This document shows, piece by piece, positions 47,667-61,340 of a stretch of DNA of 64,000 nucleotides. The stretch covers positions 1 through 64,000 of the forward strand of contig JAKLKA010000025.1 of NCBI GenBank assembly GCA_023150915.1, written 5' to 3'. Source of the stretch: Polyangiaceae bacterium (GTDB lineage: Bacteria; Myxococcota_A; Polyangia; Polyangiales; Polyangiaceae). Under the pieces are notes generated by a model. That model made no database searches, was not told where the DNA came from, and saw only the letters and a list, made by a program, of their open reading frames with translations. A program made the position numbers and the translations under genes. Position 1 is the stretch's first letter. Every line of letters starts with the position of its first letter.

Positions 47667-47720
47667 AGCAGCGCCGGTTGTCCCGGCGCGCCGGTCGTGC
47701 TTCGAATCGCTCATTGCACG

Positions 47721-48527
47721 ATGAGTGACCCGAAGCTGGAGCTCGACTGGCAAGGCGATTCGCCCCGAGGCGCTGCGAGTGACCGCCCGGCCTCGCTGGC
47801 GCCGGCGGTCGAGTCGCTGGTCGGCAAGGGCCCGCCCGGGGACCCGCGGTTCATGAGCACCGAGCTCCGCGCGGAGCTTCGCGCCGTCCTCGAAGGGAGC
47901 TGGCTCTCGGTGCGTCAGTCGTTCGAGTCCCTGCAGATGCTGGTCGGCTGGGATCAGCCCAGCCAGTACGAGGTGCGCGGCTCGGACACCCGCGTGGTGA
48001 TGTATGCCGCGGAAGAGCGCGGGTTTCTCCAGGGGCTGTTCCGCAACTTCAACCCCTTCCACCAGCGCCACATCGAGTGCCTGACGCTGGCGGGCACGCG
48101 CGCCATGACCATCGACTTCCCCTTCCGGCTGATGCTCCGGCGGGGCGAAGTAATGGCCTGGGACGGGCGGTGCATGGGCCGCATCCAGGAGCGCTTTCAC
48201 CTGCTCAGGACCATCGTCGAGGTGCAATCCCCGGGTGGCGTGCCCGAGCTGGTGATCCGTGGGCCCTGGCTGAAGCTCTTTTCGTTCACCGACTGGGTGT
48301 TCGAAGTGAGCCGGGGTGAAGTGGTGGTGGGGCGGATCAAGAAGCACTTCAGCGGGTGGCTCCGCGAGACCATGGGTACTTCGGACGACTTCTCCATCGA
48401 GTTCGACGCAGGGCTCGCCGACCCGCGCCACCGGCAGCTGCTGCTGGCAGCCGCGCTCACGCTCGATCTGGTCCGGTTCGAGCAGCGGGGCAACTCGGGC
48501 ACGCTCACCCGACTGCTGGGGGGGTGA
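47721..48527 (+). CDS. Phospholipid scramblase-family protein
   Basis: 268 residues. After about 70 variable residues the scramblase/LURP-one fold is seen: SLQMLVGWDQPSQYEVRG, FLQGLFRNFNPFHQRHIECLTLAGTRAMTIDFPFRLM, and VELVIRGPW/FEVSRGEVVVGRIKKHFSGW. The end (LLLAAALTLDLVRFEQ) corresponds to the buried C-terminal helix. The Cys-rich palmitoylation motif of animal proteins is absent. Lipid scrambling by bacterial members is unproven. The ATG at 47721 is preferred over 47697. Confidence 0.82.
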   Translation: MSDPKLELDWQGDSPRGAASDRPASLAPAVESLVGKGPPGDPRFMSTELRAELRAVLEGSWLSVRQSFESLQMLVGWDQPSQYEVRGSDTRVVMYAAEERGFLQGLFRNFNPFHQRHIECLTLAGTRAMTIDFPFRLMLRRGEVMAWDGRCMGRIQERFHLLRTIVEVQSPGGVPELVIRGPWLKLFSFTDWVFEVSRGEVVVGRIKKHFSGWLRETMGTSDDFSIEFDAGLADPRHRQLLLAAALTLDLVRFEQRGNSGTLTRLLGG

Positions 48528-55399: not shown

Positions 55400-55642
55400 G
55401 TGAGGCCCCGCTGGTGCCTGCTTCCGCCCTTCGCGCTCGCGATCGTCGTCGCCAGCATGCTGGACGTGGTTCACCGCGAGGGGGATCACGTGAGCTACTT
55501 GGTGCTCGCACCACATCCCACCCTCGGCTTCGTTCACGGGGGCGGAGAAGAGGGGGCGTTTCGGCGGGCCCACCCCGGCGTGCCCCCGCCCTGGTGGCTG
55601 CGCGGGGACTACTGGGTGCTGTGCGAGGTGACTGACGGCTGA
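55400..55642 (+). CDS. Small membrane-anchored hypothetical protein
   Basis: 80 residues from the GTG at 55400: a hydrophobic N-terminus (WCLLPPFALAIVVASMLDVV) and a short polar part (VSYLVLAPHPTLGFVHGGGEEG, GVPPPWWLRGDYWVLCEVTDG). Third positions are mostly G or C. No family recognised. It lies 60 bp before the first flavoprotein gene and could be the first gene of that operon. Confidence 0.45.
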   Translation: MRPRWCLLPPFALAIVVASMLDVVHREGDHVSYLVLAPHPTLGFVHGGGEEGAFRRAHPGVPPPWWLRGDYWVLCEVTDG

Positions 55643-55702
55643 CAGACCGCCGTGCCTTCCGGCTTGATCTCGAAAAGCGCGCGGCACACGCTGCCTTCCG
55701 TC

Positions 55703-57331
55703 ATGAGTCGAACCGAGCACGACGTCATCATCATCGGGGGCGGCCATCACGGCTTGACCTGCGCGGCCTATCTGGCGCGCGCCGGCGTGGACGTGTGCAT
55801 TCTCGAAGGGCGCCACGAGTGGGGCGGTGCGGTGTACACCGCAGAGGTCACCGCGCCGGGCTTCTGCCACAACATCCATGCGAACTTCATGGAGTTCCTG
55901 CACATCATGCCGTTCTTCGCGGACTTCGATCTGCCCAGTCTCGGCGCGCGCACCATCCATCCGGAAATTCAGGCCGGCATTGCCTTCAAAGACGGCCGCC
56001 CCCCGGTGCTGATCTACCGAAACGACATGATCGAAGAGACGGCCAAGAGCTTCGCCGTCTACTCGAAGCACGACGCCGACGCTTGGCGCGAGCTGAAGGC
56101 GAAGGCCAACATGTTCGAGCTGGTGATGGCCGCCGCGCTCTACACGCCGCCCGCCAAGTGGAACCCGAGCGAGAGCCTGCCGAACCCCATGCTGGCCACC
56201 CAGAGCTCGTTCAGCATGTTCGGGCTCGACGAAGAGATGGCGTTCAAGACGGTGCGCGACTGCATCGACGAGTACTTCGAGGCCGACGAGGTGCGTGCCC
56301 TGCTCTATCGCGTGGCCATCGAGTTCGCGGCTCCCAGCCTGGAATGGCCCGGGTCGGGCTACTTCTTCCTGTTCGCGTGCCTGTTCATGCCCGGGTGCTG
56401 GCGCATGATGGTGGGCGGCACGCACCGCCTGAACGGCGCCATGGTCACGGCGTGCATCCAGGCAGGGGTGACCATGCGCGAGTCGAGCCGAGTGAAGCGC
56501 ATCGTGCTCGAGGGCGGGCGGGCGGCGGGTGTCGAGCTGGTCGACGGCAAGCGCCTGATGGCGAGGCGCGCGGTGGTCAGCGCCATTGGCCTGAAAGACA
56601 CGCTGCTCGACATGGTGGGGGCCGAGCACCTGTCGGACTACACGCGGCGGCGCGCAACGCACTTCAAAGAGGGGCCCGACCAGGTGCTGGGGTCGGTGGC
56701 CATGGCGCTGCACGAGCCGCCCAAGTACAAGAGCGCGCGCTGGGACCCGGGCATCGACCGCGCCTGGTACCAGGTGGTCGGGTACGACAGCGCCAAGGAC
56801 GTGCTCGACTACTGCCGCGCGGGCCACTGTGATCGCGTTCCCGAGTTGCCCGCGGCGGCGGTGTGGGTCAACTCGCTGTGGGACGCGACCCAGGCCCCCC
56901 CGGGCAAGCACAACCTGACCGGGTGGTACTTCTTCCCCAAGGCGAGCGCGCTCAGCGAGGCCGAGTGGGAAGAGGTGCGGGGGACCTACAACGACAGGTT
57001 CTTGCGTTTGTACGGCGAGTTCGCCCCGAACATGACCCGCGAGAACGTGATCGCCGACTACCTGCACACGCCGCTGGATCAAGAGCGCGGCATGCGCATG
57101 CGCGAAGGCGACTTCGGTCACGGCGCCATGAGCCTGGATCAGGTGATGGGCCTTCGCCCCTTCGCCGGGGTGGCGCACCACGGCACCGAAGTCCCGGGGC
57201 TCTACCTGGCGGGCAGCTGCATGCACCCCGGTGGGGGCGTCACGGCTGCGTGCGGCTACAACGCCGTCAAGGTGCTGTGCCAAGACCTGGGGCTGCCACC
57301 GGTGTGGCAAAACCCCAGAAGGTTCTACTGA
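55703..57331 (+). CDS. Phytoene-desaturase/retinol-saturase-like flavoprotein 1
   Basis: 542 residues. N-terminal FAD-binding motif DVIIIGGGHHGLTCAAYLARAGVDVCILEGRHEWGG and a C-terminal GLYLAGSCMHPGGGVTAACGYNAVK, the hallmark of CrtI/RetSat-type FAD enzymes. Two hydrophobic stretches near the middle (YFFLFACLFMPGCWRMMVGG) fit membrane contact. These enzymes desaturate, saturate or isomerise isoprenoid or other apolar chains. No carotenoid synthesis gene (crtB, crtE) is nearby. ATG at 55703. Followed after 8 bp by a related gene. Confidence 0.88.
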   Translation: MSRTEHDVIIIGGGHHGLTCAAYLARAGVDVCILEGRHEWGGAVYTAEVTAPGFCHNIHANFMEFLHIMPFFADFDLPSLGARTIHPEIQAGIAFKDGRPPVLIYRNDMIEETAKSFAVYSKHDADAWRELKAKANMFELVMAAALYTPPAKWNPSESLPNPMLATQSSFSMFGLDEEMAFKTVRDCIDEYFEADEVRALLYRVAIEFAAPSLEWPGSGYFFLFACLFMPGCWRMMVGGTHRLNGAMVTACIQAGVTMRESSRVKRIVLEGGRAAGVELVDGKRLMARRAVVSAIGLKDTLLDMVGAEHLSDYTRRRATHFKEGPDQVLGSVAMALHEPPKYKSARWDPGIDRAWYQVVGYDSAKDVLDYCRAGHCDRVPELPAAAVWVNSLWDATQAPPGKHNLTGWYFFPKASALSEAEWEEVRGTYNDRFLRLYGEFAPNMTRENVIADYLHTPLDQERGMRMREGDFGHGAMSLDQVMGLRPFAGVAHHGTEVPGLYLAGSCMHPGGGVTAACGYNAVKVLCQDLGLPPVWQNPRRFY

Positions 57332-57339
57332 GGCGCGCC

Positions 57340-58944
57340 ATGGGCATGTTCGATCAAGGTTTCGACGCGATCATCATCGGCGCAGGCCACAACGGCATGG
57401 CGCTGGCAGCGTATTTGGCCAAGTCGGGTTGGTCGGTGGCCGTGCTCGAGCGCCGAACCGAAGAGGGCGGCGGGCTTTGCACCGAAGAGGTGACCGAGCC
57501 GAACTTCTTGCACAACCTGCACTCGAACTATCACTCGCTGGTCGGCATCTGCCCGGTCTACGACGACCTCGAGCTGACCGAGAACGGCGTCGAGTACGGC
57601 CACCCCGACGTGCAGATGGGCAGCATCTTCGACGACGGGACGGCGCTGACCATCCACACCGACATGCGGAAGACGGCCGCCAGCTTCGCGCGGTTCTCAC
57701 AGAAAGACGCCGACACCTGGATGCGCCTCTGGGACGAGGTCTGCGGATACATGGACCTGATGGTGCGCACGTTGATGTACGCGCCGCCGATTGCGCTGAA
57801 CGACATCACCCGGGCCCTGGCGTCGTGGGGCGTGGAAGACAAGAGCGAGTTCTTGGCAGCACGGCTGCGCTCGATGAGCGTGGCCGAGTTCTTGGACAAG
57901 CACTTCGAGAACGACCGCATCAAGGCCATGCTGGCGTTCCACGCGGCGATCTGCGCCTATCAGCCCCACGTCAAGGGGCTGGCCGTGACCTATCCGGTGC
58001 TGCTCGGAAAGATCGCCAACTGGCACGTGTGCAAGGGCGGGAGCCACCGCCTGGCCCACGCTCTGATGCGGGTCATCGTCAAGGCCGGCGGGCGGGTCTT
58101 CCCGCAGGTGCCGGTGACCCAGATCGTGGTCGAGGGTGGCCGCGCGGTCGGCGTGATGACCCCCGATGGCTTCGTGCGGGCGCACAAGCTGGTCGCCTCG
58201 AGCATCGACGTGAACCAGACTTTCGAAACGTTGCTCGAGCCCCAGTTCGTGCCCGAGCGCACGCGGCGCGAGGTTGCCGACGTGCAGTACCAGGACGCCA
58301 CGCTGTTCAACGTGCACGTCGCGATGAACGGCCTGCCACGCTACAAGGCGGCGGCGTTCGACCCGGACATCGATCGCGCCTGGATCCTGAACATCGGCTT
58401 CGAGAGCCTGGCCGACTTCGAGCACGAGTTCGCCCAGGCGCGGGCGGGGCGCCTGCCCAAGCGGCCGCGGCTGAACGCGGCCGTGAACTCGCTCTACGAT
58501 CCGACCGACGCGCCCGCGGGGAAGGCCACGGGCCTGTTGCGCGTGTTCGCACCGTTCGCGCTCGAAGATGGCGGCGCCGAAGCCTGGGGCCGCGTCTCGC
58601 GACAGTATGGCGAGGCCTGCCTCGCGCGCTGGCGCGAGGTCATGATCGACGACGACGCGCAGAGCATCGTGCGGCGCTTCTCCACCGAGTCGCCCCACGA
58701 GATCAGCCAGAAGATGATCAACTACCGCTTCGGCGACTGGATGGTCGGGCGCATTCACCCCAAGAACCTGCTCGAACACCGCCCTACCGACGAGCTGGCC
58801 GGGTACCGCACGCCCATCTCGGGGCTGTACCTGTGCGGCGCGTCGCAGCACCCGCACGGCTACATCACCTTCGCCCCGGGCTACAATGCGCTGGGGGTGA
58901 TCGCCGAGGACATGGGCATCGACAAATGGTGGGATCGGGTGTGA
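57340..58944 (+). CDS. Phytoene-desaturase/retinol-saturase-like flavoprotein 2
   Basis: 534 residues, a paralogue of the preceding protein. FAD motif DAIIIGAGHNGMALAAYLAKSGWSVAVLERRTEEGG; C-terminal GLYLCGASQHPHGYITFAPGYNALGV. Shared landmarks are HNLHSNYHSL against HNIHANFMEF and KGGSHRLAHALMRVI against VGGTHRLNGAMV. Two different subunits of one family suggest a heterodimer or two successive steps on the same substrate. Its TGA overlaps the GTG of the next gene (GTGA at 58941). Confidence 0.88.
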   Translation: MGMFDQGFDAIIIGAGHNGMALAAYLAKSGWSVAVLERRTEEGGGLCTEEVTEPNFLHNLHSNYHSLVGICPVYDDLELTENGVEYGHPDVQMGSIFDDGTALTIHTDMRKTAASFARFSQKDADTWMRLWDEVCGYMDLMVRTLMYAPPIALNDITRALASWGVEDKSEFLAARLRSMSVAEFLDKHFENDRIKAMLAFHAAICAYQPHVKGLAVTYPVLLGKIANWHVCKGGSHRLAHALMRVIVKAGGRVFPQVPVTQIVVEGGRAVGVMTPDGFVRAHKLVASSIDVNQTFETLLEPQFVPERTRREVADVQYQDATLFNVHVAMNGLPRYKAAAFDPDIDRAWILNIGFESLADFEHEFAQARAGRLPKRPRLNAAVNSLYDPTDAPAGKATGLLRVFAPFALEDGGAEAWGRVSRQYGEACLARWREVMIDDDAQSIVRRFSTESPHEISQKMINYRFGDWMVGRIHPKNLLEHRPTDELAGYRTPISGLYLCGASQHPHGYITFAPGYNALGVIAEDMGIDKWWDRV

Positions 58945-59435
58945 CCGAGCGCCCGCGCGTCGAGCTGATCGGCGCCGACTCGGCCAGCGGGTTGGCCGAT
59001 TTGCTTCACCAGTTCTTGGAGCAGACGGTCGACGCTTCCGATCAGAAGGCCGAAGCTGCCCGGGCTCTGAGGGGAGCGGTGGTGGTGCGTGCGGCGGAAG
59101 ACGAGGCGATCGCCGTGCGCATTGCCTTCCAGGGCGATCGGATCGAGCTGCGAGACATCGGCACCGAGGCCACGGGCTCCACCCCGAGCATCCAGGGCGA
59201 CTTCTTGTCGGTGGCCCACGTGACCAGCGGGCAGGCCAGCCCCATGGCGCTGGTGCTCAGCCGCCAGCTCCGCGTGTCGTTTGGCCTGGGTCAGCTGCCG
59301 TTCCTGTTCCGCGTGCTCGGTTTCATGCGGGTCGACGACGGGTCCGACCGGCCCCGCCGCGTCCCTCTGCTCGTACTCGTACTCGTGCCCGTGTTCGTAC
59401 TCGTGCTCGTACTCGTCTTCTTCCTCCGCAAGTGA
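58941..59435 (+). CDS. Tail-anchored SCP2-like lipid-binding protein
   Basis: 164 residues from the GTG at 58941, which overlaps the preceding stop. A helical start (GLADLLHQFLEQTVDASDQKAE) and an SCP2-like part (AVRIAFQGDRIELRDIG, SIQGDFLSVAHVTSGQASPMALVLSRQLRVSF) are followed by a basic stretch and a C-terminal hydrophobic segment, VPLLVLVLVPVFVLVLVLVF, then FLRK. The end has the form of a tail anchor. The protein would hold the lipid-binding domain against the inner membrane beside the two flavoproteins. The anchor is coded by a hexanucleotide repeat. Confidence 0.7.
   Translation: MTERPRVELIGADSASGLADLLHQFLEQTVDASDQKAEAARALRGAVVVRAAEDEAIAVRIAFQGDRIELRDIGTEATGSTPSIQGDFLSVAHVTSGQASPMALVLSRQLRVSFGLGQLPFLFRVLGFMRVDDGSDRPRRVPLLVLVLVPVFVLVLVLVFFLRK
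59370..59417 (+). repeat. Hexanucleotide tandem repeat coding a Leu-Val membrane anchor
   Basis: Eight 6-bp units of the form CTCGTA, with variants CTCGTG, CCCGTG, TTCGTA and CTCGTC, code for alternating Leu-Val. Copy-number change would lengthen or shorten the membrane helix in steps of two residues without altering the frame. Confidence 0.9.
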
Positions 59436-59447
59436 CTCAGAGGTCCC

Positions 59448-59894
59448 ATGCCCGCCATCTATTCCGACGCTTGGTACGACGACATGAAAGCGCTGATCAA
59501 CGGATCGGCCGAGTTCAAGAAGCTGGCGCCGAAACAGCGCGCAGTCATGACGCTGGAGGTGGTCGGCGACGGCAAGAGCCCGTACGTGCCGAGTGGTGCA
59601 GAGCTCTACTTCCTGGTGGTCCTCGACGGTGGCGAGGTGGCCGAGTACCGGGCCCTTCCCGAGCGCCATGACGGCAAGGGGCTGGGCTTCCGCTTCACCG
59701 CGCCGGCGACGGTGTGGGAGAACATCGCAGCCGGGCTCTTGGACCCCATCACCTGCGGTTTGCGCGGCCAGATCAAGATCCGCGGTGACATGCGCTTTTT
59801 GATGCAGAACGCCGACGCGGTGAAGATCTTGGTCGACCTGTATGGCCGGCAAGGCCGGACCGAGTGGCCCCAGGGCAAGCCGCCCTACGCCTGA
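59448..59894 (+). CDS. SCP2 sterol-binding domain protein
   Basis: 148 residues, a soluble SCP2-fold protein: MKALINGSAEFKKLAPKQRAVMTLEVVGD, ELYFLVVLDGGEVAEYRALP, TAPATVWENIAAGLLDPITCGLRGQIKIRGDMRFLMQNADAVKILVDLY. Proteins of this fold hold a lipid tail in a central tunnel and often work with lipid-modifying enzymes. It lies 12 bp after the tail-anchored SCP2-like gene and belongs to the same operon. ATG at 59448. Confidence 0.88.
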   Translation: MPAIYSDAWYDDMKALINGSAEFKKLAPKQRAVMTLEVVGDGKSPYVPSGAELYFLVVLDGGEVAEYRALPERHDGKGLGFRFTAPATVWENIAAGLLDPITCGLRGQIKIRGDMRFLMQNADAVKILVDLYGRQGRTEWPQGKPPYA

Positions 59895-59972
59895 GCAACC
59901 GTCATTTACGGCACCGCGCCGACCGGTTACGCCAGGCGACAGGTGAGGGGTGTACCCCCGAAGGAGGCAGCG

Positions 59973-61340
59973 GTGAACGACAACGTGAAGTACACGCTCG
60001 ACGAGTCCCAGATCCCGAAGGCTTGGTACAACATCGCGGCAGATCTGCCGAAGCCGCCCGAGCCGCCGCTGCACCCCGGCACGGGCCAGCCCATCGGGCC
60101 CGACGACCTGGCGCCGCTCTTCCCGATGTCGCTGATCCAGCAAGAGGTTTCGACCGAGCGCTACATCGAGATCCCGGAGCCGATCCGTGACGTGTATCGC
60201 CAGTGGCGTGTGACGCCGCTCTATCGCGCGCGCCGCCTGGAGAAGGCGCTGGGGACGCCCGCGAAGATCTACTACAAGTACGAGGGCACGAGCCCGAGCG
60301 GCAGCCACAAGCCGAACACCGCCGTGGCCCAGGCTTTCTACAACAAGGAAGCGGGGGTGAAGCGCATCAGCACCGAGACCGGCGCCGGTCAGTGGGGCTC
60401 GTCGTTGGCCTTCGCCGGCGCGCTGTTCGGGATCGAGGTCAAGGTCTACATGGTCAAGGTCAGCTTCAACCAGAAGCCGTACCGCAAGGCACTGATGCAG
60501 GCCTACGGCGCCGAGTGTGTGGCGAGCCCGAGCACCGAAACCGAGTCGGGTCGCGCCATCTTGGCGAAGTTCCCCGACAGCCCCGGCAGCCTGGGCATTG
60601 CCATCAGCGAAGCCGTGGAGGTCGCCGCGAAGAACGACGACACGAAATACGCGCTCGGCAGCGTGCTGAACCACGTGCTCTTGCACCAGAGCGTGATCGG
60701 GATCGAGGCCCTGAAACAGATGGAGGTCGCCGGCGACTATCCCGACGTGGTGATCGGCTGCGCCGGGGGCGGGTCGAACTTCGCTGGCCTTGCCTTCCCC
60801 TTCCTGGGCGAGCAACTGCGCGGTGGCAAGAAGGTGCGCGTCATTGCCTGCGAGCCGGCGGCGTGTCCCAGCCTCACCCGCGGCAAGTTCGCCTACGACT
60901 TTGGCGACACCGGGCACCTGACCCCGCTGGTGAAGATGCACACTCTGGGCTCCACCTTCATTCCGCCCGGCTTCCACGCCGGCGGTCTGCGCTATCACGG
61001 CATGGCGCCGCTGGTCAGCCACGTCCACGAGCTCGGGCTGATGGAGGCGAAGGCCTTCCACCAGAAGGGGTGCTTCGAAGCCGCTCTCGAATTCGCACGC
61101 GCCGAAGGCATCATCCCGGCGCCCGAGTCGAGCCACGCGGTGAAGTGCGCGATGGACGAAGCGCTGCGCTGCCGTGACGAGGGCGTGTCGCGCGTCATCT
61201 TGTTCAACCTGTCCGGGCACGGGCACTTCGACATGGGCGCCTACACCGACTTCTTGAGCGGCAAGCTCGAGGACAAGGACTACGACGAGAAGGCCCTCTC
61301 CGAGGCGCTGGCGCAGCTGCCCCCGGTGGCGGCGGGCTGA
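59973..61340 (+). CDS. trpB: TrpB2-like tryptophan synthase beta chain (PLP-dependent)
   Basis: 455 residues, the size of the TrpB2 subfamily, longer than classical TrpB (about 400). The PLP lysine is in [11 protein letters not shown]; the phosphate-binding loop is [34 protein letters not shown] carries the catalytic Glu. TrpB2 makes tryptophan from indole and serine, or acts on phosphoserine in some lineages. No trpA is nearby. GGAGG about 7 bases upstream sets the GTG at 59973. It follows the SCP2 gene by 78 bp and may have its own promoter. Confidence 0.9.

Follow-up and report, generated by a model that had tools for sequence, protein, structure and literature searches.

Four adjacent genes in a 64,000-nucleotide stretch of DNA from a Polyangiaceae bacterium (contig JAKLKA010000025.1, assembly GCA_023150915.1; hereafter the window) form one real unit, which is kept together beyond near relatives of the host. 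They encode twin flavoproteins, here labelled FlvA and FlvB, and two small proteins of the SCP2 type, labelled ScpM and ScpS. We see an even chance that this cassette works as one functional unit, in which an SCP2-supplied flavoprotein pair would dehydrogenate a hydrophobic, membrane-derived molecule.

All four genes lie on the forward strand of the window, which belongs to a host genome of 8.0 Mb that is 98.8% complete. As far as this analysis showed, the host is represented by environmental assemblies only. The first twin, flvA (55703–57331), encodes a CrtO/PYROXD2-like flavin adenine dinucleotide (FAD) flavoprotein of 542 aa, and the second, flvB (57340–58944), a protein of the same type with 534 aa. 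They are followed by scpM (58941–59435), for a 164 aa protein of SCP2 fold with a C-terminal membrane anchor at about residues 143–162, and by scpS (59448–59894), for a soluble SCP2-family protein of 148 aa. The intergenic spacings are 8, −4 and 12 bases, and the 4-base overlap of flvB and scpM reads GTGA (58941–58944). None of the four genes extends into the upstream stretch 55400–55702, which an earlier note on this DNA had included in its range. Scans for promoters and terminators gave no signal above chance.

The cassette was traced through a sample of 377 Myxococcota genomes, with at least 1000 bits taken as a strong FlvB match. Nine of the 377 passed this threshold; the next-best match scored 431 bits. 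ScpS was found in the same nine genomes, its next match dropping to 36.6 bits, and ScpM in these nine plus G371. Wherever FlvB, ScpM and ScpS co-occur, they are adjacent. All four orthologues lie together in both other genomes of the host's genus and in G034, which represents a different genus, and the cassette is also present in distant families of the phylum. Coverage outside Myxococcota consisted of plasmids and one pattern scan of genome contigs, and a wider spread is possible. Seven named loci from metagenome-assembled genomes, found by pattern scan and titled Myxococcota, Myxococcales, Polyangiaceae or Deltaproteobacteria, carry orthologues of all four genes. With these loci included, the intact copies number 12, and FlvA orthologues occur in 12 genomes. 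The only incomplete copy is a decayed one in G371 (L133, G371:C1:1658001-1664000), in which FlvB matches from residue 212 on and FlvA up to residue 288, and ScpS was not found; G371 is a single-contig genome of 68% completeness, and misassembly is possible.

The genes flanking the cassette served as a control. Copies of the cassette do not have them in common beyond close relatives, so the adjacency of the four genes does not just reflect general synteny. The ratio of non-synonymous to synonymous substitution rates against two congeners was 0.04–0.25 over all four genes (0.04–0.08 for FlvA), which signifies purifying selection on all four proteins.

Two gene orders were observed. Subtype I, with the order A-B-M-S, comprises nine copies (the window, L041, L042, L043 and L047–L051), and subtype II, with the order B-M-A-S, comprises three (L071–L073). 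Between subtype II and the window, FlvB is 56–58% identical and FlvA 44–47%. In every copy of both orders, ScpM directly follows FlvB. It usually overlaps the flvB stop in subtype I (−1 to −16 bases), except in L049, where a gap of 196 bases separates the two; in subtype II, ScpM overlaps the flvA start by −11 to −20 bases. Within the host's taxonomic family, FlvB occurs in seven genomes of three genera and is absent from 101 others, and G140 has a subtype-I cassette among class mates with subtype II. This scattered occurrence, together with the subtype mismatch of G140, suggests horizontal movement of the cassette. In L047, a TetR regulator gene (L047:6346-6972) lies about 28 bases upstream of the cassette.

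FlvA and FlvB each carry an N-terminal FAD-type Rossmann motif (GGGHHG and GAGHNG, respectively). Pfam returned DAO, NAD_binding_8 and Amino_oxidase for each, with DAO and NAD_binding_8 above cut-off. The best curated model was NCBIfam CrtO (NF045689), which scored 196.2 bits (E 1e-58) with FlvA and 221.2 bits (E 2e-65) with FlvB and aligned over residues 5–527 and 7–521, nearly the full length of both proteins. By this full-length alignment and the GxGxxG motif, both can be classed by sequence as members of the CrtO/CrtI-like flavoprotein superfamily; they are presumably also kin to PYROXD2. The two share about 33% identity and are therefore paralogues. All FlvB orthologues have HPHG(Y/F)(I/V)TFAP in place of the HPGGGV of subtype-I FlvA; in the window, FlvA keeps HPGGGV near its C-terminus, and CGASQHPHGYITFAP replaces it in FlvB. 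This swap of a C-terminal motif implies that the twins probably differ in role. The structure model of FlvB had a predicted local distance difference test score (pLDDT) of 42, too poor for inspecting the predicted FAD site.

ScpS belongs to the SCP2 family, matching PF02036 at 24.7 bits over residues 61–125 (gathering cut-off 21.3 bits), and its profile matches the Thermus SCP2 structures 1wfr and 2cx7 over most of the length. ScpM stayed below the same cut-off, with no Pfam match up to E 1 and no NCBIfam match. An AlphaFold2 model of ScpM, built from 8 sequences (pLDDT 75), predicts an SCP2 fold close to UbiJ-SCP2. Foldseek placed UbiJ-SCP2 entries at the top (E 3.6e-5), and nearly all of the 22 chains better than E 1e-3 were of the SCP2 type. 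VIA-align gave Z 10.8 to 6h6p (UbiJ-SCP2; 3.2 Å over 113 residues) and Z 10.2 to 1c44, with Z 10–12 at 2.2–3.2 Å across UbiJ-SCP2, Thermus SCP2-like, rabbit SCP2 and alkylsulfatase SCP2 domains. Profile–profile comparison of ScpM with ScpS produced a weak alignment only (P-value 0.02).

In all nine subtype-I copies, ScpM has a 19-residue hydrophobic segment at most 5 residues from its C-terminus, with a mean hydropathy of 1.8–3.5. The anchors differ in sequence while their hydrophobicity is kept. Most of the anchor in the window, a Leu-Val run, is encoded by a CTCGTA hexamer repeat (59370–59416, forward strand; Tandem Repeats Finder score 59). We rejected the idea that the anchor is a mere DNA microsatellite artefact, as relatives without the repeat retain it. 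The three subtype-II ScpM proteins are shorter and have no C-terminal hydrophobic stretch. What the earlier note had observed in these genes thus stands: paralogous flavoproteins with FAD motifs, spacing of 12 bp or less with a GTGA overlap, a real anchor on ScpM, and two SCP2-type proteins, one by PF02036 and one by predicted fold. Conserved adjacency in Myxococcota, on which that note had beforehand let its proposal stand or fall, was found in the 12 intact copies.

To place the twins, a tree of 91 family members was calculated (quick search, unrooted, long branches flagged), with support from the Shimodaira–Hasegawa-like approximate likelihood ratio test (SH-aLRT) and no bootstrap. FlvA and FlvB each form a separate single clade (SH-aLRT 99–100), and both clades sit in a set with a support of 97 whose remaining members come from tandem flavoprotein clusters of Myxococcota. 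Pairing is therefore a habit of the clade. The nearest relatives of FlvA are one half of the G140:C72 and G331:C202 pairs. Twin pairs recur in Myxococcota at L123–L132 (for example L128:5995-11840 and L127:4630-10338), several of them flanked by two small WSKGLGK-type proteins with no Pfam match, an APH-type kinase and a 150-aa protein. On the alphaproteobacterial plasmid NZ_CP033222.1 (L079:6001-9221), related tandem flavoproteins about 11 bases apart precede an aminomethyltransferase and an aminotransferase; this pair differs from that of the cassette and is possibly for methylated amines.

The surroundings of such relatives make a catabolic role the main rival explanation. FlvA and FlvB would then be a desaturase pair oxidising an environmental alicyclic, steroid-like or aromatic-precursor compound, with the SCP2 proteins holding the hydrophobic acid or coenzyme A (CoA) ester. 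Pfam identified luciferase-like monooxygenase, SDR, KstD-like FAD and APH-kinase genes around the sister twin pairs, and further genes near them look like those for acyl-CoA dehydrogenases and enoyl-CoA hydratases, on visual inspection of the N-termini alone. Plasmid homologues occur in catabolic-looking clusters of alphaproteobacteria, beside aminomethyltransferase genes or aromatic-degradation genes of the ring-cleavage type. Paired flavin desaturases are used in the breakdown of cyclohexanecarboxylate, and NCBIfam 4-oxocyclohexanecarboxylate dehydrogenase is among the weak matches of the flavoproteins. However, the cassette is without any conserved catabolic neighbour in the flanks checked, and a soluble acid would not call for a membrane-anchored SCP2 protein. 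We consider the catabolic explanation unlikely, if the most serious of the alternatives.

The similarity of the flavoproteins to CrtO raises the question of carotenoids. Ordinary carotenoid desaturation was rejected as the main role, in agreement with the earlier note, which had not seen it as the obvious one. Both curated cut-offs were missed: CrtO (NF045689) demands 1000 bits, and the CrtI family model TIGR02734 demands 238.1 bits, of which FlvA and FlvB reached 73.7 and 96. SQS_PSY (PF00494), the phytoene/squalene synthase family, had matches in seven of ten cassette genomes and none in G140 (94% complete) or G331 (90%), both of which have an intact cassette. In G259 and G306, two SQS_PSY genes lie side by side; judged by position only, they are probably an hpnCD-like pair for squalene. 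The host has one phytoene synthase gene on contig C47, which overlaps its own CrtI-like gene next to a MerR-like gene. The near-complete carriers without SQS_PSY and this separate crtI-crtB locus make a carotenoid role unlikely. The same evidence bears on a broader version, in which the cassette would modify carotenoids or other C30/C40 isoprenoids as a CrtO/CrtI-type ketolase, desaturase or isomerase apart from the main crt genes. The full-length match to CrtO as the closest curated family speaks for it, as do gamma-carotene desaturase (4rep) and CrtI (4dgk) as the top solved-structure sequence matches and the presence of a phytoene synthase in the host genome. Set against the missed cut-offs, the carriers without a synthase match and the location of the host synthase on another contig with its own CrtI-like partner, these points leave isoprenoid modification very unlikely.

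We favour a mechanism in which FlvA and FlvB, probably as a heteromeric pair, would dehydrogenate (desaturate or oxidise) a hydrophobic, membrane-derived molecule in consecutive FAD-dependent steps. In most lineages, ScpM would be membrane-located and load FlvB, its constant gene neighbour, and ScpS may act as a soluble holder or shuttle for substrate or product. The logic would be that of UbiJ in the Ubi metabolon of E. coli, where an SCP2 domain has been proposed to hold a lipid intermediate for soluble enzymes and to dock the set on the membrane. In L047, a third SCP2 protein (PF02036, 53.7 bits; L047:11353-11835) is encoded directly downstream of the cassette, which we count in favour of SCP2-supplied dehydrogenation.

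The redox direction could also be the opposite, which is the version of the earlier note. FlvA and FlvB may be a cofactor-redox isomerase or saturase, similar to RetSat, CrtISO or polyunsaturated-fatty-acid isomerase, that acts through reduced flavin on unsaturated fatty-acyl, quinone or polyprenyl chains. The CrtO/CrtI-like family includes polyene-chain reductases and isomerases, and a lipid substrate fits the SCP2 partners. However, the sequences indicate no electron donor partner, and no conserved reductase or ferredoxin gene lies beside the cassette; we regard this explanation as distinctly improbable.

Several observations weigh against SCP2-supplied dehydrogenation of a membrane-derived molecule. 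The ScpM anchor is missing from subtype II, and SCP2 folds are also found as domains within alkylsulfatases and Eis acetyltransferases. The canonical HPGGGV is lost in FlvB, which might be a non-catalytic partner. The luciferase-like monooxygenase, SDR and KstD-like genes adjoining the sister twin pairs fit small-substrate catabolism equally, and a Pfam check of the genes flanking the cassette gave no conserved pathway neighbour that could point to its function. What the analysis shows is the unit with its conservation and purifying selection, the SCP2 folds, the FAD motifs and the hydrophobic tail; the heteromer, the substrate class, the redox direction and the roles of the two SCP2 proteins are inferred. 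From the earlier interpretation, the conserved unit, the SCP2 pair and the non-carotenoid role are retained; a membrane-lipid substrate and its reduction or isomerisation are not established. The same is true of the division of labour in which one SCP2 protein presents the substrate and the other carries it. Since the tail anchor is absent in subtype II, ScpM need not present anything at the membrane. To assign apolar chains as substrates to flavoproteins of this kind, as the earlier note did in its premise, was too strong, given the family members in catabolic-looking clusters of alphaproteobacteria. A bolder reading is that the cassette encodes a previously unrecognised, membrane-docked flavoprotein–SCP2 complex, which would make or remodel a lipid of Myxococcota and be the best-defined representative of the wider twin-flavoprotein clade. 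We advance this tentatively and with less than even confidence.

A TrpB-like pyridoxal phosphate enzyme is encoded downstream of scpS (59943–61340, forward strand; NF009057, 746.8 bits), outside the core unit. It was rejected as a fifth member: outside genus g1, a single g33 genome has it next to the cassette, and tblastn found no TrpB-like gene in L043, L047, L049–L051 or L071–L074. A scramblase-family gene (47697–48527; PF03803, 92.9 bits) precedes the cassette by about 7 kb, and its upstream position is retained in G002. Genome G053 encodes a ScpM-like and an SCP2 protein that adjoin each other (L044:8036-8888) with no flavoproteins alongside. Weak ScpM-like proteins also have a fixed context in genus g13 (L075, L078), where genes for about 890 and 100 aa precede them, and in genus g14 (L076, L077), where they are flanked by genes for 312 and 432 aa.

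With this cassette, an orphan flavoprotein clade gains defined partners, two lipid-carrier-type proteins whose genes stay with those of the flavoenzyme pair through a change in gene order. The substrate question becomes directly testable via the molecules held by the SCP2 proteins. The cassette also draws attention to several sister systems in which twin flavoproteins have different small partners. In addition to ubiquinone synthesis, it offers another case where SCP2 domains apparently supply a set of redox enzymes at the membrane.

Among known systems, the SCP2 protein UbiJ of the E. coli Ubi metabolon (and likewise UbiT) is set beside flavoenzymes that act on a lipid, an arrangement that resembles the cassette. 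UbiJ shares the SCP2 fold with ScpM and tops its Foldseek matches, at an identity of only about 15%. The Ubi flavoenzymes are hydroxylases of a family other than that of FlvA and FlvB. No ubiquinone hydroxylase was found by Pfam among the cassette flanks, the part of the genomes searched for ubi genes; one flank, in L049, includes a generic methyltransferase that matches Ubie_methyltran weakly. It has been proposed that the SCP2 domain of UbiJ holds the intermediates of ubiquinone synthesis for the metabolon and releases the product to the membrane, and an extra C-terminal element of UbiJ contacts the membrane (PMC9499169), as the anchor of ScpM would. Rather than forming a transmembrane tail, this C-terminal part of UbiJ is the partner of UbiK, whereas subtype-I ScpM has a hydrophobic tail. 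With no ubiquinone hydroxylase in the flanks checked and, in subtype I, a hydrophobic tail in place of a UbiK-pairing coiled coil, the cassette does not fit the Ubi metabolon.

The beta-carotene ketolase CrtO and the phytoene desaturase CrtI have the full-length CrtO alignment, the FAD Rossmann motif and the 4rep and 4dgk matches in common with FlvA and FlvB. The cassette proteins differ in scores far below the curated cut-offs, a constant twin and SCP2 partners, the altered C-terminal motif of FlvB, and their occurrence in genomes that lack any match to a C30/C40 synthase. The twin pairs of L123–L132 belong to the same tree set, some of them with small partner proteins; unlike the cassette, they have WSKGLGK-type partners, catabolic-looking neighbours and no ScpM or ScpS. 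Within the SCP2 family PF02036, to which ScpS belongs by score and ScpM by fold, ScpM stands apart in being unseen by Pfam and tail-anchored in subtype I, and both proteins in being tied to a flavoprotein pair. A literature search, conducted outside subscription journals, found no paper describing the four-gene cassette. Its parts come from known superfamilies, and their four-part arrangement, not described in the literature searched, is that of an SCP2-assisted flavoenzyme set.

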